Shown: positions 5,149 through 64,000 of the stretch, one piece after another
Layout: each line of letters starts with the position of its first letter
Numbering within the stretch: the first letter of the stretch is position 1
NCBI GenBank assembly: GCA_903844215.1
Contig: CAIMSP010000071.1
Span: 1-64,000, forward strand
Length of the DNA stretch: 64,000 nt
Reading direction: 5' to 3'
Source: an uncultured beta proteobacterium
Lineage (GTDB): Bacteria > Pseudomonadota > Gammaproteobacteria > Burkholderiales > Burkholderiaceae_C
Program-made: the position numbers and the translations under genes
Notes under the pieces: model-generated
The model's database searches: none
What the model saw: only the letters and a program-made list of their open reading frames with translations
What the model was told of the DNA's origin: nothing

Positions 5149-5826
5149 TCACAGGCTGCGGCACAAGGTGTACTGGTTGTCGTCGCTGTAGCTGCTGGCG
5201 GCCGCGCCCGGGGCGGTATTCGCGCCCACCGTGGCCTGCGTTGCCAACACGTTGCCCCGGTCGGCCAGGCCGTCGTCCAACTGGATGTCGATGGCGCGGG
5301 CCGCCTTGCCCGGCACCTGTGACAGGCAGACCGAGAGCGCGGTCACGCCGGCGGCCGAAGTGACGCCGGGGCCGACGCCGATGAATCCGTTGAAGGCGTT
5401 GCGTGGCAGCGCGGCCACGCCGGCGTCGCCCGGATTGCCCGCGATGAAGCCGCCCGCCTTGAGCGCCTGCCAGAAGGCCGCCGCCTCGCCGCCCGCCGTG
5501 AAGACTTGGGCCTGGGTGACCGAGAGCACGCCGTCGTTGTTGCCGAACTCGCTCACGCTGGCCCAGTTGCCGCCCCGGGACTGGAGCGAGGCCAGCGTTC
5601 CCAGCGGCCCGGCGTCATCGCCCGCGAGGCTGTGAAAACGATCGACATAGGCGTGGTACGCGACCGCGACGCTGTTGAGGTCGTTCACGCCACTCTTGAT
5701 TCGGGCACTGTCGATCAATTCCTGGCCCTTGAGGACGCCGCCGAGCAGCAAACCGATGATGACCAGGACGATGGCGATTTCGACCAGGGTGAAGCCCGAC
5801 GCGCGGGTCTGAAGCGGATGTTTCAT
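5149..5826 (-). CDS. Type IV prepilin-like protein (major pilin candidate of the MSHA-like cluster)
   Basis: A 225-residue prepilin. The short basic leader MKHPLQTRASG is followed by the class III cleavage site and hydrophobic helix FTLVEIAIVLVIIGLLLGGV with the conserved Glu5, so it should be processed by a prepilin peptidase and assembled from the inner membrane. Two cysteines near the C-terminus (SVCLSQV and YTLCRSL) could form the usual C-terminal disulphide loop. Start chosen at ATG 5826, preceded by AAGGAA; a longer start at 5883 would place the cleavage site unusually deep. It is the last gene of the minus-strand pilus operon and its stop sits 3 bases from the convergent chrA stop. Confidence 0.85.
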   Translation of the reverse strand: MKHPLQTRASGFTLVEIAIVLVIIGLLLGGVLKGQELIDSARIKSGVNDLNSVAVAYHAYVDRFHSLAGDDAGPLGTLASLQSRGGNWASVSEFGNNDGVLSVTQAQVFTAGGEAAAFWQALKAGGFIAGNPGDAGVAALPRNAFNGFIGVGPGVTSAAGVTALSVCLSQVPGKAARAIDIQLDDGLADRGNVLATQATVGANTAPGAAASSYSDDNQYTLCRSL

Positions 5827-5902
5827 GGATTTTCCTTTCGTTGGCAAGTCAATCGGCCGTTCCCTCTTGTTGTCTCTTTGCACCTTGCGCTGGCAGGCGT
5901 GC

Positions 5903-6625
5903 TCATGGCAGCTTGCCCGCCTGCAGCATGCGGTTGAACAGCAGGCCGGTCGGAAGCCAGCTCACGATGTCGTCGAATTCACCGGCGCCAGCGCCCGCAG
6001 CCGCCGGGCTGGCGCTGACAAAATTGCCATTCCCGTCGCTGTTGTCGATTTCGTCGGCGCTGCTCGGCGCGCTGCGCACAACGCCGCCCGACGTGGTCGC
6101 ACCGAAGCCGTTTTTTCCATGCGAGAGGATGACGGCCGGAACGCCGCTGGCGAGTTCCGTGACGCACAGCGCGGTCGCGCAAACCCGCAGCGTGGCGACC
6201 GAGCCAAGGCCAAAGCTGGCGCCCGGGCTGCGGCTCGAAAAGTTGCTGTTGACGCTGTAGCGAAAGCGGTTGCCCCAGGCATCCAAGCTGGCCACACCAA
6301 GCGTGGCCCAGGGCAGGTTGCCCTCCTGCGTGACGCAGTGGCCGGTGGCCGCCGTCACGTCTTCCAGGCCGTCGTTGGCCGTGCCCGTGGCGCCGGCCAC
6401 GCTCAGGTCCGGACAGGGCAGGTGCGCCGGGGTCTGGCTCGCAGCGTAGCCGAGCAGCGCCTCGCGGGCATCGTCCAGCATGGTTTGCGTCGCCCGGATC
6501 TTTTGCTGTTCGAGCTGCGTGCCCAGTAGGGACAGGCCGCTGGCGCAGAGCAGGCCCACGACGAGCAGCGAAATGGCGACTTCGATCAGCGTGAAGCCGT
6601 GGCCGTGAGTCGGGGCTGGGCGCAT
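5903..6625 (-). CDS. Type IV prepilin-like protein with LPCPD module
   Basis: A 240-residue prepilin. Leader MRPAPTHGHG precedes FTLIEVAISLLVVGLLCASG with Glu5. After the helix comes ATQTMLDDAREALLGYAASQ, then a module with HLPCPDLSV, GNLPWATLGV and DAWGNRFRYSVN. That layout (helix, AREALLGY, LPCPD, LPW) recurs in the large upstream protein at 6640-8682, so the two share a common pilin-type globular domain. It follows that gene by 14 bases and precedes the last prepilin gene by 76. It is likely a minor pilin; which pilin is the main subunit cannot be read from sequence. Confidence 0.82.
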   Translation of the reverse strand: MRPAPTHGHGFTLIEVAISLLVVGLLCASGLSLLGTQLEQQKIRATQTMLDDAREALLGYAASQTPAHLPCPDLSVAGATGTANDGLEDVTAATGHCVTQEGNLPWATLGVASLDAWGNRFRYSVNSNFSSRSPGASFGLGSVATLRVCATALCVTELASGVPAVILSHGKNGFGATTSGGVVRSAPSSADEIDNSDGNGNFVSASPAAAGAGAGEFDDIVSWLPTGLLFNRMLQAGKLP

Positions 6626-6639
6626 GGCACGGATGCGCT

Positions 6640-8682
6640 TCAGTCGGCGCGCAGCACGAACTGGCTCAGGGCCACACCCTGGCGGCGGCTGCCCGAAAGA
6701 AAGCCGCCGGTGACACCGTAGTACACCGAGGCCAGTGCGGCGTCAGGGGCGACGCAGCGTTGCATCGAGGGCGTCTGCACCAGCCGGTCCAGGTCCACGG
6801 CCACGTCGCTGCAATCGCTGCAATCGACCCAGACCGCAACGCGCAGGAAGTCGTTCGGGGCCGCGTGCGCCGCCGGATTGCAGCGGCCGCAGTCGGCATT
6901 GCAGCCCGAGTGAATCTCCACGCGCTGCCGGTGCGTGGCCGGGGGCGACTCCTCGAATCGGTTCGCCGGCCCATGGCGACAAGCCACCGCACGGCCGTCA
7001 CACGCCAGGCTCATGCTGTCGCCCGCTTGCGCGTGGTCGAGATGGCCATGGAGCAGGATGGCGCTGTGGTTTTGCACCGGGTCCAGACTCGGGGCGGGGT
7101 CGCGGTGGACGTCGGTCTCGATGATGATGGAGTGTTGGCCCCAGGGATCGGCGGCGTCCAGCGCGCCCATCATGGCCTTGCTGCCGCAGTGGCCGGGTGC
7201 TGCGCCGACGTCTGCGCCGACCAGTTGCAGCGTGAAGCCATTGCCTCGGTCCACGCCAGCGCCGGTCAGGGCAAAGGCGTCGGCAAACGCGAACCTGAAC
7301 TCGTCGTAGGCGCGCAGTGTCTTGCCCGCCAGTGGCACGGCCGTAGGCGACCAGATGCAGCCGCCCACCGAACCGGCGGCAGCCGCCAAGCCGACCGAAC
7401 CACTGGAGCTATCGATCGTGACACCCGCGCCAACCGGATTGAAGCTGGCCAGATCCTTGTCAAACGACTGCTGCACCTGCCCCGGCGCCAAGCCTTTGAC
7501 GCAGCGCAGCAGGTCGGCACTGGCCTGGACCGGATCGAAAAACCCGGCTCCGGCATAGGCGCCGGCGGCCGGGAAGATCGCGTTCACGCCCTCCAGATAC
7601 ATCGCCGGGTCGCCAAATTGCGTCGCGCTGCCGATGCGCGCCGGCGTGTCGCGCAGCTGGGCACCCAGCGGCGCCACACTGCGCTGCGTGCGCTCGCCGG
7701 CGAAGAACAGCACGGCGCTGCAGCCGCCAAGGCCGTTCAACGTGGGCGCGAGCGCGGGCCGGGCGTAGAGCAGGTTGTTCTGCCAGTGCTTGAGGATGTT
7801 GCCCTTGAGCGGCGCAGCCGGCGCGCAGGCGGCAACGACCTGGTCCACGCCCTTGTTGCCCACCGATGGCGTCAAGCCCAGATGGCCCGGCGGCAGCTTG
7901 TTCAGGCAGAGCTGCAGGTCGCCCAACAGCTGGTCGATGTCGGCCTTGAAGTCGCTGCGCTTCTTCAAGCGATCGAACACATCCTGGGCCGTGATCCAGC
8001 GGCCTTGGTCATTGTTCAACGCGCCTTGCCGACTGTCGGCGTTGCCGAGCACCAGGGTGCTGACCGCGCCAGCGCCGGCCAGCAGCGTGCTGCCCTCCAG
8101 GTAGTTGGCGGCGACCAGGTTGCCGCCGCACTCGGTGTTCGTCCCGGCGCCGAGCCGGGGTTGCCCCGGCAATGCGGCCAGCGGCGCCAGCACGACGGCC
8201 CAAGCCCGGTCGTGCGGCGTGGGCCCCGTCAACGCCGTTCCGGCGGCGTCCTGCAATGTGAACTGACCCAGCGTGTCCCAGTTCAGCGGACTCGCTTTCG
8301 GACTGTCCTTGAGCGCGCCGGAGACCGCGTACCAGAGGCACTCGGCGGCGCTGTCGCGCAGCGGCGCCAGCGCCATCGAGCGCGTCTTCCAGGGCAGTCG
8401 TCCCAGCACCGACACCTGGCTCGCGCCGCAAGGAGGATGGGCCACACCGTCGTTGTTGCTGTCAGGACAGGGCAGATAGCCAAAGACCTCTTCGTCGTTC
8501 ACCAGGTAGCGGTAAGCCGTGGCAAATCCAATCAGCGCTTCCCTGGCCTGGCCCAGGGCCGACGCCGTGATGCGGTCGCGCTCGATTTGCATTCCAGCCG
8601 AGCTTCGAAGCGCAAGCCAGGTCGCCACCACGCCCAACACCAGCAGCAACAGCAACAGCACCGAACCCGCTGCGCGTTTCAT
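6640..8682 (-). CDS. Large pilin-like protein with putative C-terminal L-type lectin domain
   Basis: A 680-residue protein anchored by one N-terminal helix (GSVLLLLLLVLGVVATWLAL), similar to PilX/MshP-type minor pilins but lacking the canonical FTLxE. Residues about 35-110 hold AREALIGFATAY, GYLPCPD and GRLPWKT, the same module as in the next prepilin. From about residue 455 the sequence resembles legume/L-type lectins: GNGFTLQLVGAD, the acidic strand IIIETDVHRDP with a following DPVQNHSAILLHG (metal-site-like), and near the end VYYGVTGGFLSG. The lectin-like part is unusually cysteine-rich (CNADCGRCN, DCSDCSD). Overlap of 4 bases with the gene before it supports co-translation. I infer a tip or adhesin role; the lectin assignment is by motif only. 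Confidence 0.7.
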   Translation of the reverse strand: MKRAAGSVLLLLLLVLGVVATWLALRSSAGMQIERDRITASALGQAREALIGFATAYRYLVNDEEVFGYLPCPDSNNDGVAHPPCGASQVSVLGRLPWKTRSMALAPLRDSAAECLWYAVSGALKDSPKASPLNWDTLGQFTLQDAAGTALTGPTPHDRAWAVVLAPLAALPGQPRLGAGTNTECGGNLVAANYLEGSTLLAGAGAVSTLVLGNADSRQGALNNDQGRWITAQDVFDRLKKRSDFKADIDQLLGDLQLCLNKLPPGHLGLTPSVGNKGVDQVVAACAPAAPLKGNILKHWQNNLLYARPALAPTLNGLGGCSAVLFFAGERTQRSVAPLGAQLRDTPARIGSATQFGDPAMYLEGVNAIFPAAGAYAGAGFFDPVQASADLLRCVKGLAPGQVQQSFDKDLASFNPVGAGVTIDSSSGSVGLAAAAGSVGGCIWSPTAVPLAGKTLRAYDEFRFAFADAFALTGAGVDRGNGFTLQLVGADVGAAPGHCGSKAMMGALDAADPWGQHSIIIETDVHRDPAPSLDPVQNHSAILLHGHLDHAQAGDSMSLACDGRAVACRHGPANRFEESPPATHRQRVEIHSGCNADCGRCNPAAHAAPNDFLRVAVWVDCSDCSDVAVDLDRLVQTPSMQRCVAPDAALASVYYGVTGGFLSGSRRQGVALSQFVLRAD

Positions 8683-9635
8683 TTCGCAGCCCTCTTGCTC
8701 ACGCTGCCGGGTGCCACGAGGTCGGTGCGCACGCCGCTTTCCAGATCCAGGGTTTCACCGACACGCAAACGCTTGCCACCAAGCACGACACCGTCCGCTG
8801 CCATGCGCGTGGGCGTGCCCGCCACCAGGGCTTGTCCTTCGGCCACGCGCTGCGCGTTGATCCAGGCGCTGCTGCGGCCGCGCTCACGTTGCACGATGCC
8901 CTGCAGACGCGCTGGCCGGCGGCCTTGCTGACCGGCATCGCCGCTGCGCTCACGGGCCATGGCGCTGCGCTCGGCGGGCGCATAGAACAAGGTGTCCAGG
9001 CCGGGCCACACCAGCGCCGGGGGAACTGGGGCCGCAGCGCCCAAGGGCGCGGCCAGAGGAAACGTCGGCTCCAGTGCGAAAAAGCGCAGCACGCACTGCG
9101 CCGCCAAACCCGCAGGGCTCGGGTCCGACAACTGGCATGCGTTGACACGAAATCGCCCCCTGGGCGCGCGCTCGAGCTCGCGCAGCAGAGCCAGCAAATC
9201 TTCCTCGTGCACCGCGCTTAAGTCCAGTTCAAGATCGTGATATTCGGCCCGGTGGCCTGCGGCTGCGCTCGCGGCTTGCGCCAGCGGCTTGGCGGCGTTC
9301 AGCGTGTAGTGCAGCACCGACGCCAGGCCCGCGCGCGCGGCGGCGGCTTGGAGCTGCTCGATCCAGACCTCGCGCTCGGGCGCGCCGATGAAGCCGGCCT
9401 GAACCAGGCGCCAGTAGTGTGGCGACTGGCGCTGGATGTAGTCCAAATCGTCCTGCCTTTGCCGGGCGCGCAATTGCACGGCGGCCAGTTCCTGCGCCGC
9501 GCTGGACCGCTCGCGCTGAGCGCGTGCTTGCCACTGCTGGGCGCCCAGCGCCAGCGTCAAACCCAGCGCCAACGCCGCACCCAGGCCGATCAGCCCGACG
9601 CGTGCGTGTGCCGCAATGACGCGCCAGGTCTTCAT
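8679..9635 (-). CDS. PilO/MshJ-like protein with C-terminal PilP/MshK-like domain
   Basis: A 318-residue inner-membrane protein of the pilus alignment subcomplex. It has one N-terminal membrane helix (about 13-32, VGLIGLGAALALGLTLALGA), then a coiled coil and ferredoxin-like region with YWRLVQAGFIGAPEREVWIE, the usual MshJ/PilO-type sequence. The last 110 residues, after a proline-rich linker, contain RLQGIVQRERGRSSAWINAQ, VAEGQALVAGT and LRVGETLDLESG, which looks like the beta-rich PilP/MshK/GspC-type domain that contacts the secretin. So the single gene seems to fuse two functions that are separate in Vibrio mshJ-mshK. Start at 9635 overlaps the preceding gene by 4 bases. Confidence 0.72.
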   Translation of the reverse strand: MKTWRVIAAHARVGLIGLGAALALGLTLALGAQQWQARAQRERSSAAQELAAVQLRARQRQDDLDYIQRQSPHYWRLVQAGFIGAPEREVWIEQLQAAAARAGLASVLHYTLNAAKPLAQAASAAAGHRAEYHDLELDLSAVHEEDLLALLRELERAPRGRFRVNACQLSDPSPAGLAAQCVLRFFALEPTFPLAAPLGAAAPVPPALVWPGLDTLFYAPAERSAMARERSGDAGQQGRRPARLQGIVQRERGRSSAWINAQRVAEGQALVAGTPTRMAADGVVLGGKRLRVGETLDLESGVRTDLVAPGSVSKRAAK

Positions 9636-11104
9636 CGCGCCAGGGCCTCGGTTCGGGCTGTGGGCGCGGGGCTGCTCGGTGCCGCCTCGGCCGCGCGCGC
9701 CAGCGTCAGACACCAGCGCAGGGACTCGCGTTCGCCCGCGTTGCTCAAGGCTTGCAGTCTGCGCTCACGCAGCGGGTCCAGCAACAGTTGAACCTCGGGC
9801 AGTTGACTCAATTGGTGGGAGATTTCTGCCAGCGTCTGCCGCTGTTCCTGGGGCGTGGCCTCGCCTTGCGGCGCCAGTTCCAGCCGGAGTTCGACCGCCA
9901 TCGCTTGCGCGTTCGCGCCCGCCCGCTGCGCCGCAGCACCGGACAGGGCCGCCGCGCCGGCGCAGGCGGCGTCGCCCTTGGACAGATGGCGCCACTCGAA
10001 GCCATGGGCGCGCAGCGTGGCCGTGCGACTGACGACTTGGGCCACACGCCGCATGGCCTGCGCCAAGGACGGTTCCCCGGCCAGTTCCTGCTGGTACGCG
10101 CTCATGGCCTGGCGCAGGGCTTGCGGCGACACCCGCGCCTGCTGGAGCGCCGGCTCGGATTGCGTCAGTCCGGCCTGGACCTGCTGGACCTGGGACAGCA
10201 TTTGGGCGCGCTCGGTTTGCGCCTGCAGCGCCGCCTGCGCTTGCCGGTTTGCGGCCCATCCCGTGAGCCCCAGACACAAGAGCGTGGCCGCCCAGCAGGC
10301 CCGGCCCAGACGCTGGCCCACAAAGGCGCTGCGCTGGCGCAATGGCGCCAATTGACCGACGGGAGATTGCAGTGCCAGATCGAACAGCACGCCTTGCCAG
10401 TCCGTCGCCGCCAGGCCTTGCCAGGGCGCGGGAGCGGCCAGCAAGTCCAGACCCAGCGCGGCCAGGGCCGCACCCAGACCGGCGGACTCACCCAGGAACA
10501 GCACGCCGTAGCGCTGCCCCGAACGCGCGACGACACGGGTGTTTTCCAGATGGCGCAGGGTGCGCAGCAGTTGCGCCGCTTGCTCGTCGGCTTGATCCGC
10601 GCAGGGAGCCAGGCGCGTCAGCAGCGGGATGCGGTCCTTGAGGAAAACAATGCGCAGGCCGGCCGTTGCCGGCATGACCAGCAACAGCGTGGGCGGCAGC
10701 CGGGAATGACGCCCCAGCAGCGCCAGCAACATCGACTGGGTCCACAGACCGGCCAACGCGCCGCCCTGGGAATCGACGGCGGATTGAATGCGCTCGGCGG
10801 CGTCCACGCCCACCAGCAGCTGCTGCGCTGGCAGCAGGCGTTCCACGAAGCCGGCGCCGCCTCGCCCGGCAATGGCGGCGCGAAAAACTGTGGCCGGAAA
10901 GCGGCTGGCGAGCTGCCGCTGGATGTAGTCGCTGCGGTCCCGCCCGAACAAACGGGGCACCTGGATCGGCGCGAAGTCTTCTTCGGCCAGATCGGTGATG
11001 GCCCAGACCGGCCCGGCGCCGACGCCGCTGTGCAACTGCCAACCGTTCTTGCCCCTTTGCCAGCATTGCGTGGCCTTGGCGCTGATGTGCAGAACGGTCT
11101 TCAT
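9632..11104 (-). CDS. PilM-PilN-like fused alignment protein (MshI-like)
   Basis: A 490-residue protein. The first 250 residues are cytoplasmic and resemble the actin-like MshI/PilM fold (opening MKTVLHISAKATQCW; DRSDYIQRQLASRFP; GLRIVFLKDRIPLLTRLAP; YGVLFLGE). A single membrane segment follows at about 268-286 (RACWAATLLCLGLTGWAA), then a long periplasmic coiled-coil region with LRQAMSAYQQELAGEPSL and a PilN-like end. This matches the PilM-plus-PilN arrangement of MSHA-type systems. It lies 6 bases after the platform gene and overlaps the PilO-like gene by 4. The fold assignments are weak in sequence and rest partly on operon position. Confidence 0.7.
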   Translation of the reverse strand: MKTVLHISAKATQCWQRGKNGWQLHSGVGAGPVWAITDLAEEDFAPIQVPRLFGRDRSDYIQRQLASRFPATVFRAAIAGRGGAGFVERLLPAQQLLVGVDAAERIQSAVDSQGGALAGLWTQSMLLALLGRHSRLPPTLLLVMPATAGLRIVFLKDRIPLLTRLAPCADQADEQAAQLLRTLRHLENTRVVARSGQRYGVLFLGESAGLGAALAALGLDLLAAPAPWQGLAATDWQGVLFDLALQSPVGQLAPLRQRSAFVGQRLGRACWAATLLCLGLTGWAANRQAQAALQAQTERAQMLSQVQQVQAGLTQSEPALQQARVSPQALRQAMSAYQQELAGEPSLAQAMRRVAQVVSRTATLRAHGFEWRHLSKGDAACAGAAALSGAAAQRAGANAQAMAVELRLELAPQGEATPQEQRQTLAEISHQLSQLPEVQLLLDPLRERRLQALSNAGERESLRWCLTLARAAEAAPSSPAPTARTEALAR

Positions 11105-11110
11105 GCGCGC

Positions 11111-12307
11111 TCAGAGCTTGATGTGGGCCACGGTGTCGTAGATCGGCCCCAGCACGGCCAGCATGATCCAGGCCAGCAGCAGCCCCAGGACGACCGTGAG
11201 CACGGGCTCGATCAAGGCCTGGACCTTGCCCACCGACTCGTCGATGTCGCGCGCATAGAAGTAGCTGATGTTGCCCAGTGCCTGGTCCAGCGCGCCGGTG
11301 GACTCGCCCACCTTGAGCATGCGAATCAGCAGCGACGGAAACAGGGCTTCGGCGCCGAAGCTCTGCGACAGCGTGCTGCCATTGAGCACGCGTTCACGGG
11401 CTTGGCGGATGGCGCGCTGAACCACCAGGTTGCGCGAGACCTTTTCGCAGTGTTCCAGGCCATCACTCAGGGCCACGCCGGTGCGATACAGCAGCGCCAG
11501 GGTGTCGGCAAAGCGCGCCAGCGCCATCTTCTTCAGAATGGGTCCGACCCAGGGCAGCGCCAACTCGGCCTGATGGCAGCGGTAGCGCACGCCCTCGAAC
11601 GCGGCCGCTAGGGCGCTCACCCCGGCCAGCGTTGCCGCCGTCAGCAGCAGCAGCGCCCAACCGTAGTCGGCGAACAGGCTCGACAGCCCCAACAGCAGGC
11701 GCGTCTGCAGCGGCAAATCCTGCCCCATCTGATGGAGGAATCCCACCAGCTGCGGCACCAGATAGAGCATCAGGAAGACGAGCACCGCGCCAACCACGGC
11801 CATGACGAAACTGGGGTAGAGCATGAGCCGTCGGGTCTGAGCGGCCAGCTCGTCCTGCCATTTGAGCGAGCGCACGATGCCCCCGAGCACCGCGCCGAGT
11901 TGGCCTGACACCTCACCGGCCCGAACCAGCTGCACCAGCGTCTGGGGGAACAGCTGGGGATAGCCCGACATGGCCTGGCCCAGCGTGGCACCGCTTCGCA
12001 CCTTTTCGTGCAGCCCGCCGCACAGGTCGCGACCGGCGTCGGATTCGGACGAGGCGCGCAACTCCTCCAGCGCCGACAGCACGGGAACGCCGGCGCGCAG
12101 CAGCAGGTCGAGCTGAAACAGCAAATCGATGAGCGCTCGGCGCGGCAGGCGCTTGCGCCTTCGTGCCTGGCGCTGCAGTGCCCGCGCGCGCAACAGCACC
12201 AGCCCCATGCGCCGCAGTTGGCTCGCCAGATCGAGCTCGTGCAGGGCCTCGGCCTGACCCCGGTGCACCTGACCCTGCAGATTGGCGGCGCGGTAGCGGT
12301 AAAGCAT
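11111..12307 (-). CDS. mshG: Type II secretion/type IV pilus inner-membrane platform protein (GspF/PilC/MshG)
   Basis: A 398-residue polytopic platform protein with the two GspF repeats of the family. Typical stretches are FQLDLLLRAGVPVLSALEEL, LPQTLVQLVRAGEVSGQLGA-like sequence in the first half, and ALLYRTGVALSDGLEHC with LLIRMLKVGESTGALDQAL in the second. The last helix is LTVVLGLLLAWIMLAVLGPI. It transmits work from the cytoplasmic ATPase to pilin assembly. The start codon shares one base with the stop of the ATPase gene (TGATG), so the two are coupled. Confidence 0.92.
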   Translation of the reverse strand: MLYRYRAANLQGQVHRGQAEALHELDLASQLRRMGLVLLRARALQRQARRRKRLPRRALIDLLFQLDLLLRAGVPVLSALEELRASSESDAGRDLCGGLHEKVRSGATLGQAMSGYPQLFPQTLVQLVRAGEVSGQLGAVLGGIVRSLKWQDELAAQTRRLMLYPSFVMAVVGAVLVFLMLYLVPQLVGFLHQMGQDLPLQTRLLLGLSSLFADYGWALLLLTAATLAGVSALAAAFEGVRYRCHQAELALPWVGPILKKMALARFADTLALLYRTGVALSDGLEHCEKVSRNLVVQRAIRQARERVLNGSTLSQSFGAEALFPSLLIRMLKVGESTGALDQALGNISYFYARDIDESVGKVQALIEPVLTVVLGLLLAWIMLAVLGPIYDTVAHIKL

Positions 12308-14013
12308 CAGACCATCCTTGGCGTGAGGTCGATCACGCGCGCGACTTCTTCGACCGTGGTGTGGCCCTGGCGCACGCGGCGCAGGCCGTCCTCGGCCATG
12401 CTGTCAAAGCCGCGTTCGCGCAGATGCTGGTTCAGCGCCTTGAGGCTGGCACGCTGCGCCATCAACTCGTCGAGCTCGGCGTCGAACTTGAGCAGCTCGA
12501 CGATCGCAAGGCGGCCTTGATAGCCCTGGAAATCGCAGGCGGCACAGCCCACCGGCCGGAAGATCGGCGGCGTTGCGCCCGCTCCCAGATCAAGCAGGCG
12601 CGCCTGCATTGCACTGGGCGCCTGCGGCGCCTTGCACTTCGGGCACAAGCGGCGCACCAGACGCTGGCCCAGAATGCCGATGACGTTGCCGGCGGCCACC
12701 TCGGGGGTGATGCCCAGATCGAACAGGCGCGGGATGGCGCGCACGGCCGAGTTGGTGTGCAAGGTGGAGAACACCTGATGACCCGTCATCGCGGCACGAA
12801 ACGCCATGTCCGCCGTTTCGCGGTCACGGATCTCGCCCACCAGAATGATGTCCGGATCCTGGCGCAGCAGGGAGCGCACGCCCTGTGCAAAGTCCATCTT
12901 CAGCGCATCCGAGAGCGAGGTCTGGCGCACGCAGGGCAGGGGATATTCGACCGGATCTTCCAGCGTCATGATGTTGACCTGCTCCTGGTTCAGATGGGCC
13001 AGGATCGAATACAGCGTGGTGGTCTTGCCCGAGCCCGTGGGCCCGGTGACTAGCAGAATGCCCTCGGGGCGCGACAGCATCAACTGCATCAAGGCCAGTT
13101 GCGCCTCGGACAGGCCCAGGCTGTCCAGCGCGAGCACGCGGCGCTTGCGATCCAGCACGCGCAAGACGAAATTTTCGCCGTGCAAGGTGGGCTGGACCGC
13201 AGCGCGGAAATCCACGGCGCGCCCGGAGATCGTGAGCGTGATGCGGCCGTCCTGGGGCGCGCGGGTTTCGGCGATGTTCATGCCCGCCATGACCTTGAGC
13301 CGCACCACCATCGCCGGCCAATAGCGTGAGTGCAACGCGCGCACCTGACGCAGCACGCCGTCCAGGCGGTAGCGGATACGCAGGAACTGCGCCTCGGGTT
13401 CGAAGTGCAGGTCGGAAGCGGCGCGCAAGGTGGCGTCGGCCAGCAGCGAGTCCATCAGCCGCACCACCGGGTGGCTGTAGCCCTCGCTGGCCTGGCTCAG
13501 GCTGGCAATGTCCAGCGTGCCGGTTTCCAGTTCGCGCAGGATGCCGTCAATGGAGAGCTCGTGGCCATAGAACAGTTCAATCGCGTGCAGGATCTCGGCG
13601 CTGGCGGCCAGAACCCAGTGCAGGCGCGGTCCGCCGGCCAGCAAGGCACTGATCTGGTCGGCGGCGACGATGTCGTTGGGGTTGGCGCTGGCGAGGATCA
13701 GTTCGCCGTTCTCCAGGCTGACGGGAAAGACGCGATGGCGCTTGGCCAGCGCCTTGGGGATCAGCGCCAGGGCGCTGGCGTCGGCGACGATGCCATGCAG
13801 GCTGATCGACTCCTGGCCGAGCTTTTGCGCGAGCGCGGCGCGCATCGCGCTCTCGCTCATGAAACCCAGCGCCAGCAGCGTTTCTCCCAGCGGCTTGTGG
13901 CTGCGCTCTTGCTCCTGCAGTGCGATGCGCAACTGGTCTGGACCCAGGCGCTTCATGGCCACGAGTTGTTCCCCCAGGCGCGCAGGCGTCGCGACGGGAT
14001 GCGAAGCGTTCAC
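12307..14013 (-). CDS. mshE: Pilus assembly ATPase (GspE/PilB/MshE)
   Basis: A 568-residue hexameric ATPase that drives pilin polymerisation from the cytoplasm. The N-terminal MshEN domain has GEQLVAMKRLG and HKPLGETLLALGFMSE, motifs that in MshE bind cyclic di-GMP. The motor carries Walker A GPTGSGKTTT at about 324-333, the Asp box MTLEDPVEYPLP, Walker B DIILVGEIRDRET and the His box STLHTNSA. A zinc-binding CPKC...CAAC motif follows the motor. Length is normal. Its gene overlaps the TPR gene by 4 bases. Two RLGx-LGE type repeats in the N domain suggest c-di-GMP control, although I have not scored both copies. Confidence 0.94.
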   Translation of the reverse strand: MNASHPVATPARLGEQLVAMKRLGPDQLRIALQEQERSHKPLGETLLALGFMSESAMRAALAQKLGQESISLHGIVADASALALIPKALAKRHRVFPVSLENGELILASANPNDIVAADQISALLAGGPRLHWVLAASAEILHAIELFYGHELSIDGILRELETGTLDIASLSQASEGYSHPVVRLMDSLLADATLRAASDLHFEPEAQFLRIRYRLDGVLRQVRALHSRYWPAMVVRLKVMAGMNIAETRAPQDGRITLTISGRAVDFRAAVQPTLHGENFVLRVLDRKRRVLALDSLGLSEAQLALMQLMLSRPEGILLVTGPTGSGKTTTLYSILAHLNQEQVNIMTLEDPVEYPLPCVRQTSLSDALKMDFAQGVRSLLRQDPDIILVGEIRDRETADMAFRAAMTGHQVFSTLHTNSAVRAIPRLFDLGITPEVAAGNVIGILGQRLVRRLCPKCKAPQAPSAMQARLLDLGAGATPPIFRPVGCAACDFQGYQGRLAIVELLKFDAELDELMAQRASLKALNQHLRERGFDSMAEDGLRRVRQGHTTVEEVARVIDLTPRMV

Positions 14014-15077
14014 GGCGCGCCCTCCCGGGCCTGGCGCAACTGTTCCAGCCGCTGCTGCGCGGCGGCGCGCGAAAAACCCGTCATGACGTCATCTTGCCCA
14101 GCCGCCTGCGCCAGCGCGCGCCGGTAGTGTTCTTGCGCCTGGTCGTAGCGGTGCAGGCGATCCAGCGCCACCGCCAGGTTGTAGCTGTGGCTCGCCTGGC
14201 TGGGCTCCAGTTGCTGCGCCTGGGCGTAGGCGAGCGCGGCCTCGGCGAGGCGCTCCTGGCGCACCAGAAGGTTCGCCAGCGCGCTTTGGGCGGGGGCCGA
14301 TTCGGGATGGCGCTCGGCCCATTCCCGAGCCCGGCTTGCCGACTGCGCCAGATCGAGTTCGCGGCTCAGCACCAGCCAGGCCGCGCCCGCTGCCGCATGG
14401 CCGGGCTCCTGGCGCAGCACGCTGCGGTAGTACGTCAGCGCCTCCTGCGGTCGTTCGCTGTTGTGGGCGATGTAGGCCAGTCCGAGCAGCGCGTCGCGGT
14501 CGCCGGCATTGGCTCTGAGCACCTTGTTGTACAGGCTCTGGGCCTCGTCCCAGCGCCCAAGCTGCAGGGCGGCGTAGGCCGAGGCGAGCGTTTCTTGCGC
14601 CGTGTTGGCGACGACGAATTCCGTTCCGCTACGGCCTGTCGCAGCGCTGCTGGCGCGGGCAGCGGGCAGATGGGCGGGGCTTGACCGAACGGCTTTGACC
14701 ACCCGCGCGGCCACCGGCACGCCGGACTCGCGGCGCCCGAGCGGGGCGGCGTCAGCGCGGCTGGCAGGGGCCACCGATGGCGGCGGCGCGACGCTCGCTG
14801 CGGCTGCGGCTGCGGCCGGTGGCGCCAAAGGCGTGCTCAGACCCGGCAACTGGGCCGCCAGAAAACCCAGACCGGCGGCCATCACGGCCACGAGCGCCGC
14901 GCCCCAAGCTGGCCTGCGCTGAGCCAAGGCGCGCTGGCCGCTGGCGGGCTTGAGATCCGAGGATAGGGTCGCTGCGTGCGTCTCCAGCGTCGCAGGTGGC
15001 CCCGCCAAGGCGGGCGCTTCCAGGGCGGCTTGTCCGTCCCCGCGGCCCGTGGCTGGTGCTTCCCACAGCGAGCTCAT
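14010..15077 (-). CDS. TPR-repeat inner-membrane protein (MshN-like)
   Basis: A 355-residue protein with a proline/alanine-rich cytoplasmic N-terminus, one membrane helix at about 58-77 (WGAALVAVMAAGLGFLAAQL), an Ala/Pro-rich linker, and a periplasmic array of tetratricopeptide repeats (AYAALQLGRWDEAQSLYNKV; ALLGLAYIAHNSERPQEALT; SYNLAVALDRLHRYDQAQEH). This architecture and its position between secretin and ATPase match MshN, whose exact role is poorly known. Start chosen at ATG 15077, one base after the secretin stop; the longer frame from 15125 would overlap the secretin. Confidence 0.82.
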   Translation of the reverse strand: MSSLWEAPATGRGDGQAALEAPALAGPPATLETHAATLSSDLKPASGQRALAQRRPAWGAALVAVMAAGLGFLAAQLPGLSTPLAPPAAAAAAASVAPPPSVAPASRADAAPLGRRESGVPVAARVVKAVRSSPAHLPAARASSAATGRSGTEFVVANTAQETLASAYAALQLGRWDEAQSLYNKVLRANAGDRDALLGLAYIAHNSERPQEALTYYRSVLRQEPGHAAAGAAWLVLSRELDLAQSASRAREWAERHPESAPAQSALANLLVRQERLAEAALAYAQAQQLEPSQASHSYNLAVALDRLHRYDQAQEHYRRALAQAAGQDDVMTGFSRAAAQQRLEQLRQAREGAP

Positions 15078-15078
15078 C

Positions 15079-16959
15079 TCAGTCTCGCAATGGGCTCGGT
15101 CGCGGCGCATCCGGCCTGACTTCAAGCCCGCGACGCGCGTCGGGCAGGGCCGCGCGAAGCGGCCGCAAGTCGCCCGACAGGCTGGCGTCGCGCAGCACGG
15201 TGGGTCGCAGGAAAATGACCAGCTCCGATTTGCGACTGCTGTCGTTGCGGAACTTGAACAAGTCGCCGAACAGGGGCAGCCGGTTCAGCCCCGGCACCTC
15301 GTCGGAGCCGTCGCTGCGCGTGTCCTGCATGAGTCCGCCCAGCACGGCAATGTCGCCCGACTGGACGCGCAGCACGGATTCCATTTCGCGCGTTTGCACT
15401 TCGGGAATGCGGTTCACGATGTTGTACTGCGCCAGCGCCGGGTTCGGGTCCGTGGCGTAGCCGGTGATGCGACTGATGGTGGGGCGCAGATTGAGCGTGA
15501 CCTCGTTCGATTCGCTCACCTGTGGCACCACCGTCATCAGGAAGCCGATGGGGACGGTGTTGATGGTGGTGTTGTAGGTCGGCGGCGTGGTCAGGGACCC
15601 GCTTGAGTAGGTGGCGGGCGTGACGCTGAGCGTGAAATACACCTTGTTGTCCACCACCTTGAGCACGCTGTTCTGGTTGTTCAGCACCGAGATCTTGGGG
15701 CTCGACAGCACGCGCAGCGTGCCGAAGGATTCCAACAGGCTGAGCACGGCCGAGAGGTCGGTGTTGCCGCCCAGCAGGCCGAAATTCTTCAGCGTCAGGG
15801 TGGCCAGCGAACTCACCAGGCCGCCGGTCTGCAGTCCGGTGCTGGGCCCGCCCGGCGCCAGGTCGATGCGCGAACCCGAGCGCGAACCCGCCGTCTGCAC
15901 CAAGGCCCAGTTGATCCCCTGCTGGTAGCTGCTGGACAGGTCCACCTCGACGATGGTGGCCTCGATCAGCACTTGGCGTCGGGCCGAACTCAGCACGCGG
16001 TCCAGAAATTCGCGCACTTTTTCGTGCTGGCTCTGCGACGCCCGCACGCTGATATTGCCGCTCTCCGGGCTGGCGATGACGTAGGCGGCCTCGCGCACGG
16101 TGCTGCGCCGCACCACGCTCGAGGCGCCGCTGGCCAGCACCGCCGGGCGGGCACTGGCCGCGAGCACGGCGGCGGCGCTGGTGCTTGGACGCGTTGTCCC
16201 CTTGCGCGGCGCCGTCCCGACATTGCCAGCGACGGCCACGCCGGTGGTGGACTGCACGCCCGATTGCTCGGTGCTGGTCTCGCTGCTTCCCTCCGGCAAG
16301 ATCTTGTCGGTCTCGCGCAGCAGGTCCTTGAGGTTGGCGACCAGCGTGTCCCAGAATCGGTTGTGGGACAGGTTCTCGATGGACGAAGTCGAGCCGTTGC
16401 TGGCATTCGCTGCACCCGCCACGTTGCCGGGCGCGCCGCCCGTGCTGGCCACGTCGGTCGAGGTGCTGATGGTGGTTTTGGCATCGCGCCTGAGGTTCGG
16501 GTAGTCCACCCGGTAGTGCGCCAGATAGGGCGCATCGACCAGGATGGACAGACTGTTGCCCTTGATCTCGTAGCGCAGGTCCACCTGACGCGCCACCCGG
16601 TCCAGAATCTCGCTCAGCGTCTGGTCGTGCACGTTCATGGTCACCGTGCCGACGATGCTCGGATGGATGTCCACGTTCAACTTGGCGTCCCGGGCCAGAG
16701 CGAACAGCAGCTCCTGCACGTCGATGTTTTGCATCACGACGCTGTACAACTCCTGGCGCTCCTTGGCTTGCGGCGGCGGCGGCAGTGGCGCGACCTCGGC
16801 AAATGGGGGCGCCCCGCCGATGACCTCGGGGGCTGGATTCAGGTGCGTGTGGGAGACCGGCAGCGACGGGCTGGAACAGCCGGCCAGCGACAGCGCCAGG
16901 CCGACAAGCGGCAAGTAGCATGCCAGGAACCGTGTGCCAGGAGAACTCAAAGCCGCCAC
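15079..16959 (-). CDS. mshL: Outer-membrane secretin of the MSHA-like pilus (MshL)
   Basis: A 626-residue lipoprotein secretin. The signal peptide ends in the lipobox LSLAGC (Cys28). An STN/N0-type domain follows (VVMQNIDVQELLFALARDAK; DQTLSEILDRVARQVDLRYE), then a low-complexity Ser/Thr/Ala-rich region, an N1-like domain and the secretin beta-domain with VLIEATIVEVDLSSSYQQGI and FGTLRVLSSPKISVLNNQNS. The C-terminus VPGLNRLPLFGDLFKFR is diagnostic. It forms the ring through which the pilus leaves. It is the first gene of the nine-gene operon; its promoter should lie between 16960 and 17177, which it shares divergently with yajC and where an AT-rich patch occurs at 17005-17045. Confidence 0.94.
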   Translation of the reverse strand: MAALSSPGTRFLACYLPLVGLALSLAGCSSPSLPVSHTHLNPAPEVIGGAPPFAEVAPLPPPPQAKERQELYSVVMQNIDVQELLFALARDAKLNVDIHPSIVGTVTMNVHDQTLSEILDRVARQVDLRYEIKGNSLSILVDAPYLAHYRVDYPNLRRDAKTTISTSTDVASTGGAPGNVAGAANASNGSTSSIENLSHNRFWDTLVANLKDLLRETDKILPEGSSETSTEQSGVQSTTGVAVAGNVGTAPRKGTTRPSTSAAAVLAASARPAVLASGASSVVRRSTVREAAYVIASPESGNISVRASQSQHEKVREFLDRVLSSARRQVLIEATIVEVDLSSSYQQGINWALVQTAGSRSGSRIDLAPGGPSTGLQTGGLVSSLATLTLKNFGLLGGNTDLSAVLSLLESFGTLRVLSSPKISVLNNQNSVLKVVDNKVYFTLSVTPATYSSGSLTTPPTYNTTINTVPIGFLMTVVPQVSESNEVTLNLRPTISRITGYATDPNPALAQYNIVNRIPEVQTREMESVLRVQSGDIAVLGGLMQDTRSDGSDEVPGLNRLPLFGDLFKFRNDSSRKSELVIFLRPTVLRDASLSGDLRPLRAALPDARRGLEVRPDAPRPSPLRD

Positions 16960-61902: not shown

Positions 61903-62946
61903 GTGGATATTACTCAACTGCTGGCATTCAGCGTGAAGAACAAGGCCTCGGACCTGCACCTCTCCGCAGGCCTGCCGCCCATGATCCGGGTGCACGGCGA
62001 CGTGCGGCGCATCAACGTCGATGCGCTGGATCACAAGACCGTGCAGTCCATGATCTACGACATCATGAACGACACCCAGCGCAAGAACTACGAAGAGTTT
62101 CTGGAGGTGGATTTCTCGTTCGAGATCGAGGGCCTGGCGCGCTTTCGCGTGAACGCCTTCAACCACAACCGGGGCTCGGGCGCGGTGCTGCGGACCATTC
62201 CGTCGAAGATTCTGACGCTCGAACAGTTGAACGCGCCGAAGATCTTTGGCGAGCTCGCGCTCAAGCCGCGCGGCATGGTGCTGGTCACCGGGCCCACGGG
62301 GTCGGGCAAGTCAACCACGCTCGCGGCCATGGTCAACTACCTGAACGAGACCGAGTACGGCCACATTCTGACCGTGGAAGACCCGATCGAATTCGTGCAC
62401 GAATCCAAGAAGTGCCTGATCAACCAGCGTGAAGTGGGGCCGCACACGCTGAGCTTTTCTGCGGCGCTGCGCTCGGCGCTGCGCGAGGATCCGGACGCCA
62501 TCCTGGTGGGCGAAATGCGCGATCTGGAAACCATCCGCCTGGCCATGACGGCGGCCGAGACCGGGCACCTGGTGTTCGGCACCTTGCACACCTCGAGCGC
62601 CGCCAAGACCATCGACCGCATCATCGACGTCTTTCCCGCCGAGGAAAAGGAGATGATCCGCTCCATGCTGTCGGAGTCGCTGCAGGCGGTGATTTCGCAA
62701 ACGCTGTGCAAGACCAAGGACGGCCAAGGGCGCGTCGCCGCGCACGAGATCATGCTGGGCACCAGCGCGATTCGCAATCTGATTCGCGAAGCCAAGGTGG
62801 CGCAGATGTACTCGTCCATCCAGACCGGCTCCAGCGTGGGCATGCAAACGCTGGACCAGAACCTGATGGACCTGGTGCGGCGCAACGTGATCAGCGCCGC
62901 CGAAGCACGCGGCAAGGCCAAGATCCCGGAAAATTTCCCGGGTTGA
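61903..62946 (+). CDS. pilT: Type IV pilus twitching-motility retraction ATPase PilT
   Basis: A 347-residue hexameric ATPase that powers pilus retraction. It starts with GTG and MDITQLLAFSVKNKASDLHL; Walker A GPTGSGKSTTLAAMV; the Asp box LTVEDPIEFVHE; Walker B DAILVGEMRDLETI; His box GTLHTSSAAKTIDRI, and the AIRNLIR motif of the C-terminal region. It is adjacent to yggS and followed by pilU after 45 bases. Confidence 0.98.
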   Translation: MDITQLLAFSVKNKASDLHLSAGLPPMIRVHGDVRRINVDALDHKTVQSMIYDIMNDTQRKNYEEFLEVDFSFEIEGLARFRVNAFNHNRGSGAVLRTIPSKILTLEQLNAPKIFGELALKPRGMVLVTGPTGSGKSTTLAAMVNYLNETEYGHILTVEDPIEFVHESKKCLINQREVGPHTLSFSAALRSALREDPDAILVGEMRDLETIRLAMTAAETGHLVFGTLHTSSAAKTIDRIIDVFPAEEKEMIRSMLSESLQAVISQTLCKTKDGQGRVAAHEIMLGTSAIRNLIREAKVAQMYSSIQTGSSVGMQTLDQNLMDLVRRNVISAAEARGKAKIPENFPG

Positions 62947-62991: not shown

Positions 62992-64000
62992 ATGGAACGT
63001 GATCAGGCCAGTGTATTCATCAACGATCTTCTTAAATTGCTCGTCAGCCGCAATGGCAGCGACCTGTTCGTCACCTCGGACTTCCCGCCGGCGCTCAAGG
63101 TTGACGGCAAGATCACCAAGGTCTCGCCGCAGGCGCTGCATGCCGGCCATACGCTGGCACTGGCGCGTTCGGTGATGAATGACCGGCAGACGGCGGAGTT
63201 TGAGCGCACGATGGAATGCAATTTCGCGATCTCGCCGCCGGGCATCGGGCGTTTTCGCGTGAATGCCTTCATGCAGCAAGGCAAGGTCGGCATGGTGCTG
63301 CGGGTGATTCCCGGCACGCCGCCCACCATCGACGGAACCGGCCTGCCGCAGATCCTCAAGGAAATCGCCATGACCAAGCGTGGCTTGTGCATCTTGGTGG
63401 GTGGCACGGGTTCGGGCAAGTCGACCTCGATGGCGGCGATGGTGGACTGGCGCAACGAGAATTCCTTTGGCCACATCATCACCATCGAAGATCCGGTGGA
63501 GTTCGTGCATCCGCACAAGAACTGCGTGGTCACGCAGCGCGAAGTCGGTCTGGACACGGAAAGCTGGGAGGCGGCGCTGAAGAACACGCTGCGCCAGGCG
63601 CCGGATGTGATCCTGATGGGCGAATTGCGCGACCGCGAAACCATGGAACACGCCGTTGCCTTCTCGGAAACCGGCCACCTGTGCCTGGCCACCCTGCACG
63701 CCAACAGCGCGAATCAGGCGCTGGACCGCATCATCAATTTCTTCCCCGAGGAACGTCGCAATCAGTTGCTGATGGACTTGTCGCTGAACCTCAAGGCCAT
63801 GGTCTCGCAACGCCTGATCCCGCGGCAAAACAGCAAGGGGCGCACGGCGGCGGTGGAGATACTGCTGAACACGCCGCTGATCAGCGACCTGATCTTCAAG
63901 GGCGAGGTCTCGGAAATCAAGGAGGTCATGAAGAAGAGCCGCAACCTGGGCATGCAGACCTTTGACCAGGCGCTGTTTGACGCCTACGAGAACAACCTCA
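62992..64000 (+). CDS. pilU: Type IV pilus retraction ATPase PilU, 3' truncated by window
   Basis: A frame of at least 336 codons that runs off the right edge. It has ERDQASVFINDLLKLLVSRN at the start, Walker A GGTGSGKSTSMAAMV, TIEDPVEFVHPHKNCVVTQR, Walker B DVILMGELRDRETMEHAVAF, CLATLHANSANQALDRIINF and LNLKAMVSQRLIPRQNSKGR. These are typical of PilU, the accessory retraction ATPase that works with PilT. It begins 45 bases after pilT and the ATG is at 62992. The C-terminal end lies outside. Confidence 0.96.
   Translation, partial: MERDQASVFINDLLKLLVSRNGSDLFVTSDFPPALKVDGKITKVSPQALHAGHTLALARSVMNDRQTAEFERTMECNFAISPPGIGRFRVNAFMQQGKVGMVLRVIPGTPPTIDGTGLPQILKEIAMTKRGLCILVGGTGSGKSTSMAAMVDWRNENSFGHIITIEDPVEFVHPHKNCVVTQREVGLDTESWEAALKNTLRQAPDVILMGELRDRETMEHAVAFSETGHLCLATLHANSANQALDRIINFFPEERRNQLLMDLSLNLKAMVSQRLIPRQNSKGRTAAVEILLNTPLISDLIFKGEVSEIKEVMKKSRNLGMQTFDQALFDAYENNL

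Follow-up and report, generated by a model that had tools for sequence, protein, structure and literature searches.

A pilin-type protein fused to an L-type lectin-fold domain in an MSHA-like operon of an uncultured beta proteobacterium

The MSHA-like operon and its 680-residue pilin

The window, by which we mean the whole stretch of 64,000 nucleotides that was analysed, contains on its minus strand an unbroken open reading frame from 8682 to 6640. It starts with ATG and encodes 680 residues, and full-length homologues support the gene (6640..8682). In the protein, a pilin-type part (about residues 1–395) is followed by an L-type (legume) lectin-fold domain (about residues 396–680), and this architecture is confirmed by our analysis. 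All sequence features named in an earlier note on this DNA can be located and mapped in the protein: LPCPD (residue 70), LPW (96), the acidic ETDVHRD strand (522), CNADCGRC (594), CSDCSD (621) and GVTGG (656). Two details need correction. The lectin-like part comprises about 285 residues (396–680) instead of the 225 given there, and the GVTGG motif, described as the end of this part, is present but stops 20 residues short of the C-terminus. The lectin part holds 10 of the 18 cysteines. Pfam and NCBIfam searches with the 680-residue protein gave no match of weight, and phmmer against the PDB sequences gave chance matches only, mostly to the cysteine-rich PsaC. Purifying selection is apparent in both halves, with NG86 dN/dS values of 0.23–0.28 for the lectin and 0.17–0.28 for the pilin part in three sequence pairs.

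The gene lies in an operon with all genes on the minus strand. Upstream are found an MshL-like secretin (15079..16959; PF00263, and TIGR02519 at 242.4 bits, just below the cut-off of 250.2), a TPR protein recognized by Pfam (14010..15125), an MshE-type assembly ATPase with an MshEN domain and a c-di-GMP motif (12307..14013; PF00437, PF05157, and NF053729 at 53.1 bits against a cut-off of 38), a platform protein of the MshG/GspF type (11111..12307; PF00482, 151 bits) and two operon proteins of 490 (9632..11104) and 344 residues (8679..9713). The 490-residue protein is syntenic in part of the loci and has no family match of weight, and the 344-residue protein is syntenic in many loci and has no family match. 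By position, we take the TPR protein, the 490-residue protein and the 344-residue protein to be MshN, MshI and MshJ/K, respectively. Two smaller pilins follow downstream. PIL240 (5903..6625; 240 residues) carries the same LPCPD/LPW module and scores 21.0 bits with PF07963, just below the cut-off of 21.2, and 20.0 bits with TIGR02532, above the cut-off of 16.3. PIL244 (5149..5883; 244 residues) has an N_methyl motif (PF07963, 25.7 bits, above the cut-off of 21.2) and is a candidate for the major pilin.

A comparison of loci shows that this order of secretin, TPR, MshE-type, MshG-type and pilin genes is conserved, which bears out the MSHA-like operon proposed earlier. In a set of 9 loci, all have MshG upstream and 8 have PIL240 downstream. 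Among 16 further chosen loci, 11 with and 5 without lectin, MshE and MshG are upstream in 15, the sole exception being a contig that is too short, and PIL240 is downstream in all 16. Loci with and without the lectin agree in gene order, and the pair of pilin part and lectin domain recurs in other MSHA-like operons, a recurrence that the note had named as a check. The locus resembles that of the MSHA (MSH) pilus in these genes and their order and differs from it in that no AAA_22 protein, the type that we take MshM to be, is encoded at the locus. The AAA_22 signals on this contig all lie within the MshE-type and PilT frames, while other contigs of the genome have stronger AAA_22 matches. The MSH model, as set out in the part of the source available to us, has mshA, mshE, mshG, mshL and mshM as mandatory genes (PMC6668835); the E, G and L types are present at the locus (the last with TIGR02519 just under its cut-off), together with a candidate for mshA. 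Two PilT-family ATPases are encoded on the plus strand of the same contig, one at 61909-62931 and one starting at 63019 and running past the end of the window (64000). A prepilin peptidase is encoded on another contig of the genome.

The pilin-type part (residues 1–395; 7498..8682, minus strand) is described by alignment A3, a profile built on it and a predicted model. Gly6, the presumed cleavage site, is invariant (10/10), and the model has a single N-terminal helix at residues 4–56. The prepilin leader and the hydrophobic N-terminal helix of a type IV pilin are thus both found, in support of the pilin-type N-terminus that had been noticed before. The Glu at +5 of type IV pilins is absent from all 10 sequences, and the window protein has Leu there. 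Absence of Glu5 is known for the tip pilins of the GspK/PilX type, which our pilin also resembles in its large globular part. It differs from them in having no sequence-family match, the Pfam N_methyl model included, and the low-confidence model of the pilin part (pLDDT 62, pTM 0.62) gave no significant match against the PDB, with a pseudopilus chain at Z 2.1 only. The A3 profile also matches the neighbouring PIL240 (E 3.5e-12), so that the pilin part of the 680-residue protein and PIL240 look like paralogues.

The lectin-fold domain and its metal-ligand pattern

The L-type lectin-fold domain (residues 396–680; 6643..7497, minus strand) was identified by a predicted model, a structure search and profile comparisons. 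The AlphaFold model, built from 7 sequences, has a mean pLDDT of 72.6 and a pTM of 0.79; four stretches are below pLDDT 50, including 467–480, 526–537 and 551–580. It adopts the jelly-roll fold of legume lectins. In a Foldseek search against the PDB, all 50 matches listed are legume lectins (E 9e-9 to 1.5e-7) with no other fold among them, and the L-type lectin fold suggested by the earlier note is thereby supported. VIA-align 2, a re-alignment of Foldseek's own matches and not a separate search, gave Z scores of at least 17 for most of the 50 listed rows. The best among the matches listed is the legume lectin domain of M. jannaschii (7elv; Z 18.3, rmsd 3.0 over 194 residues). The identity to legume lectins is 9–16% in the listed rows. 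Among viral predicted structures, 34 matches were obtained at E <= 0.001 with low TM-scores, and these were read as generic jelly rolls.

The homology to L-type lectins was also followed by profiles. A profile–profile comparison of the domain with five bacterial L-type lectins gave a score of 40.45 with a probability of 74%, while the scores of a column-shuffle control (n=40) peaked at 24.7 and averaged 13.7. Two of 11 rows were left out of this comparison, L005 for its insertion and L027 for misalignment. The alignment spans 112 columns only, in the N-terminal half, and lines up E-x-D, D and N-H. Neither the window protein nor the genome has a match at the cut-offs of PF00139 and PF18483. Two related pilins of family f155 from another order of the same class, L113 and L114, pass PF00139 with 42.7 and 32.8 bits (cut-off 26.3) and do not pass PF18483. 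They share the pilin part (143 and 138 bits), and the window's lectin profile matches almost the full length of their domain, with 101 and 85 bits. From the fold, the profile comparison and the homology of these two proteins to PF00139, we conclude that the domain is a diverged L-type lectin. The window's lectins and a second, more diverged lectin group also find each other, if weakly. In eight relatives the lectin part gives no lectin match in Pfam, and the same holds for L033, L031 and L017. The lectin profile against the PDB sequences gave a single chance match (4m0m, E 0.94), and a relative's lectin likewise gave one. In another member of the order (L037, genome G040), a PF00139 match was found in a frame of 341 residues.

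The number of cysteines is even in 21 of 21 lectin domains, ranging from 2 to 10 (the stretches of L036 and L062 are incomplete). This is expected of a disulfide-bonded exported domain, and the CNADCGRC and CSDCSD clusters are included in the set.

A metal-ligand pattern is found at 7066..7119 (minus strand) in the form E522-x-D524 ... D534-x4-H539, with D528 occupying the position of the calcium/sugar Asn. We take the counterparts of the four ligands in ConA to be E8, D10, D19 and H24. In an alignment of 11 relatives, the E and D of the ETD strand and the D and N that follow it are invariant, the H is nearly so, and the pattern aligns with that of a bacterial L-type lectin. Across the 21 lectin domains, E-x-D is present in all. 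The D...H pair, its members spaced by 3 to 10 residues, was detected by script in 20 of the domains and recognized by eye in L062. The acidic strand that had been likened to a metal site is therefore borne out as a ligand pattern in sequence. The positions that we assign to sugar and calcium from the classical L-type lectins behave differently. The Asp of loop A is the key sugar contact of L-type lectins, and Asn481 stands in its place in the window protein. Among the 21 domains, this position is Asp in 3, Asn in 9 and another residue in 9 (the replacements being N, K, Y, E, R, P and S), and the position of the calcium-loop Asn is Asp in 10, D528 of the window protein among them, Asn in 4 and another residue in 7. 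Both the metal loop 526–537 with D528 and D534 and the stretch 467–480 before Asn481 have pLDDT values below 50, as has 551–580, so that the binding site is not reliably modelled. With the metal ligands kept and the sugar contacts not, sugar binding by the domain, as judged from these residues, is no more than likely.

Distribution and remodelling of the lectin module

The pilin part is far more widespread than the lectin. It is present in 139 of 300 genomes drawn from the order and in 44 of 229 drawn from the class (E <= 1e-10). Lectin pilins occur in 8 of the 300 genomes of the order (G000, G055, G185, G189, G221, G282, G307 and G312), a count that combines 7 from a first search with G282 from a second only; a match in G240 (E 5.6e-4) was left out, since its frame is without a pilin part. 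The lectin is carried by two of the 19 newly fetched loci of the class survey; the others, a few of which are truncated by the end of the locus, have no match to a lectin profile. Similarly, three lectin profiles gave no match at E < 0.01 to 50 frames scored as lectin-absent, some of them cut by the locus end. In particular, an orthologue from the same genus (L026, 10001-11287) stops at the border between pilin and lectin and thus represents a natural lectin-less version. Its protein is identical to that of L006 from genome G001, of the window's own genus.

A tree was calculated from 70 pilin parts, leaving out 15 loci that duplicated a genome or locus (L006 being treated as equal to L026), frames below 80 bits and segments shorter than 200 residues. 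The lectin label needs at least 7 changes on this tree, 5 of which are forced by well-supported branches, while shuffled labels need 18.2 changes on average. The lectin is therefore clustered, yet it has been gained, lost or exchanged several times. The best explanation is that the pilin part is a conserved core and the lectin an accessory, acquired, lost and elaborated by individual lineages.

Some individual loci are worth describing. L056 falls within the lectin clade of the pilin tree and has a different C-terminal tail of about 180 residues. Inspection by eye revealed insertions in lectin loops: two repeats of about 125 residues in L005, HGF-type repeats in L036 and L062, three repeats in L029 and a cysteine-rich piece in L017 and L059. 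Within the pilin part, the head (residues 56–235, window 7978-8517) is 35–48% identical between the window protein and L004, while residues 301–345 and most of the lectin are 57–69% identical. L004 and L026 share one head type, which is unlike that of the window protein. This apparent mosaic of heads within the genus may point to exchange.

A proposed place for the lectin at the pilus tip

We interpret the protein as a minor pilin of modular build in a type IV pilus of the MSHA-like kind. It would show a glycan-binding L-type lectin at the tip and act as an adhesin, and we give this reading a probability of about 0.6. The tip position is suggested by the missing Glu5 and the architecture. The prepilin peptidase, whose gene lies on another contig, would remove the leader by cleaving behind Gly6. 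The Glu5-less pilin could then cap the filament as the GspK and PilX-type tip pilins do, and PIL240 and then PIL244 would be added beneath it by the MshE-type ATPase with its c-di-GMP motif and by MshG. Judged from the parts present, the filament would leave through the MshL-like secretin. The lectin domain is probably held by disulfides and a bound metal pair, and at the tip it may bind glycans on surfaces, matrix or other cells. To be noted, PilY1-type proteins are encoded on other contigs of the genome and would be rivals for the role of tip adhesin.

The lectin fold may also have been kept as a protein-binding or structural tip module without sugar binding, which would hold a partner adhesin or another protein. 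The sugar-contact Asp is replaced and varied in 18 of 21 domains while the metal ligands stay fixed, and the close structural matches listed include arcelin-1 and arcelin-5, although within 1 Z of true lectins. Arcelins are lectin-like plant proteins, some of which are said to have lost sugar binding. However, the metal site, which in L-type lectins shapes the sugar site, is kept in sequence, and a sugar could still be bonded by Asn481 and Asp528 if the two had exchanged their roles; we consider a purely protein-binding module unlikely, though deserving of attention. It is still less probable that the protein stays outside the pilus and serves its assembly from the inner membrane or the periplasm, with the lectin acting on cell-wall or exported polysaccharide. 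Such a role would fit the absence of Glu5 and the large size, and not every pilin-like protein of an operon need be a filament subunit, but the Glu5-less pilins of the GspK/PilX type are tip subunits, and the lectin, with its loop insertions and its accessory distribution, looks like a variable module that is exposed. A carbohydrate-active enzyme of the ConA-like superfamily on the pilus was rejected as highly improbable: glucanases do occur in this superfamily and ETDVHRD superficially resembles the E-x-D-x-x-E motif of the GH16 type, but the second Glu is missing, with V, H, R and D standing there, and the 50 matches listed per structure search are lectins or lectin-like proteins with no hydrolase.

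Within our preferred reading of a lectin-bearing tip pilin, a further step can be proposed tentatively, and we would sooner doubt than assert it. The widespread Glu5-less MSHA-like tip pilin may be a carrier for a legume-type lectin that is plugged in, lost and remodelled by loop insertions and other tails, and the Asn/Asp exchange (Asn in loop A and Asp at the place of the calcium-loop Asn) may keep sugar binding and change its specificity. If true, bacteria would have here an equivalent of the receptor-binding modules that become diverse at fibre tips.

MSHA-type pili are named for their mannose-sensitive binding, and to our knowledge their sugar-binding component is unsettled. The presence in several lineages of a tip-type subunit with a lectin fold and a metal-ligand pattern, together with a lectin-less congener, makes this question directly testable. 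It also means that legume-type lectins can sit on pilins while being too diverged for family searches. Compared with the legume/L-type lectins (PF00139, PF18483; 7elv), whose fold and metal-ligand pattern it shares, the window's lectin has no Pfam match, no conserved sugar-contact Asp and an extra cysteine-rich loop.

Among known pilins, PilC of S. sanguinis is described, in the part of the source available to us, as a modular pilin with a lectin module that binds glycans (PMC9934059). It is alike in carrying a C-terminal lectin module of the ConA superfamily, modelled at the tip, and its glycan binding was measured; it differs in that Glu5 is present, the pilin part is unusually short, an Ig-like module lies in between and the lectin was superposed on galectin-7 (PMC9934059). 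The window pilin, in contrast, lacks Glu5, joins about 395 residues of pilin part to a legume-type lectin that shows the metal-ligand pattern, and belongs to a secretin-bearing MSHA-like system. According to the accessible part of another study, modular pilins are widespread, 264 modular pilin architectures are reported, the place of GspK at the tip is discussed, and the CofB-type minor pilins (type IVb) also combine a pilin stalk with C-terminal beta domains predicted at the tip (PMC8179133). The CofB-type pilins, likened here by description, belong to a different pilus class and have different domains. No lectin pilin is mentioned in the titles and abstracts listed for MSHA pili, and, PilC aside, no legume/L-type lectin joined to a pilin was found by title and abstract, although the set of 264 architectures (PMC8179133) may include one. 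The one paper listed for L-type lectins together with type IV pili is a review on antibiofilm lectins, and none was listed for legume lectins with prepilins. Since modular lectin pilins are known from PilC, a legume-type lectin on a Glu5-less, tip-type pilin of an MSHA-like system is a new form and not a new kind of system. As a minor observation, a lectin pilin in one MAG (L025, 5792-7986) is split by a frameshift between its pilin and lectin parts.
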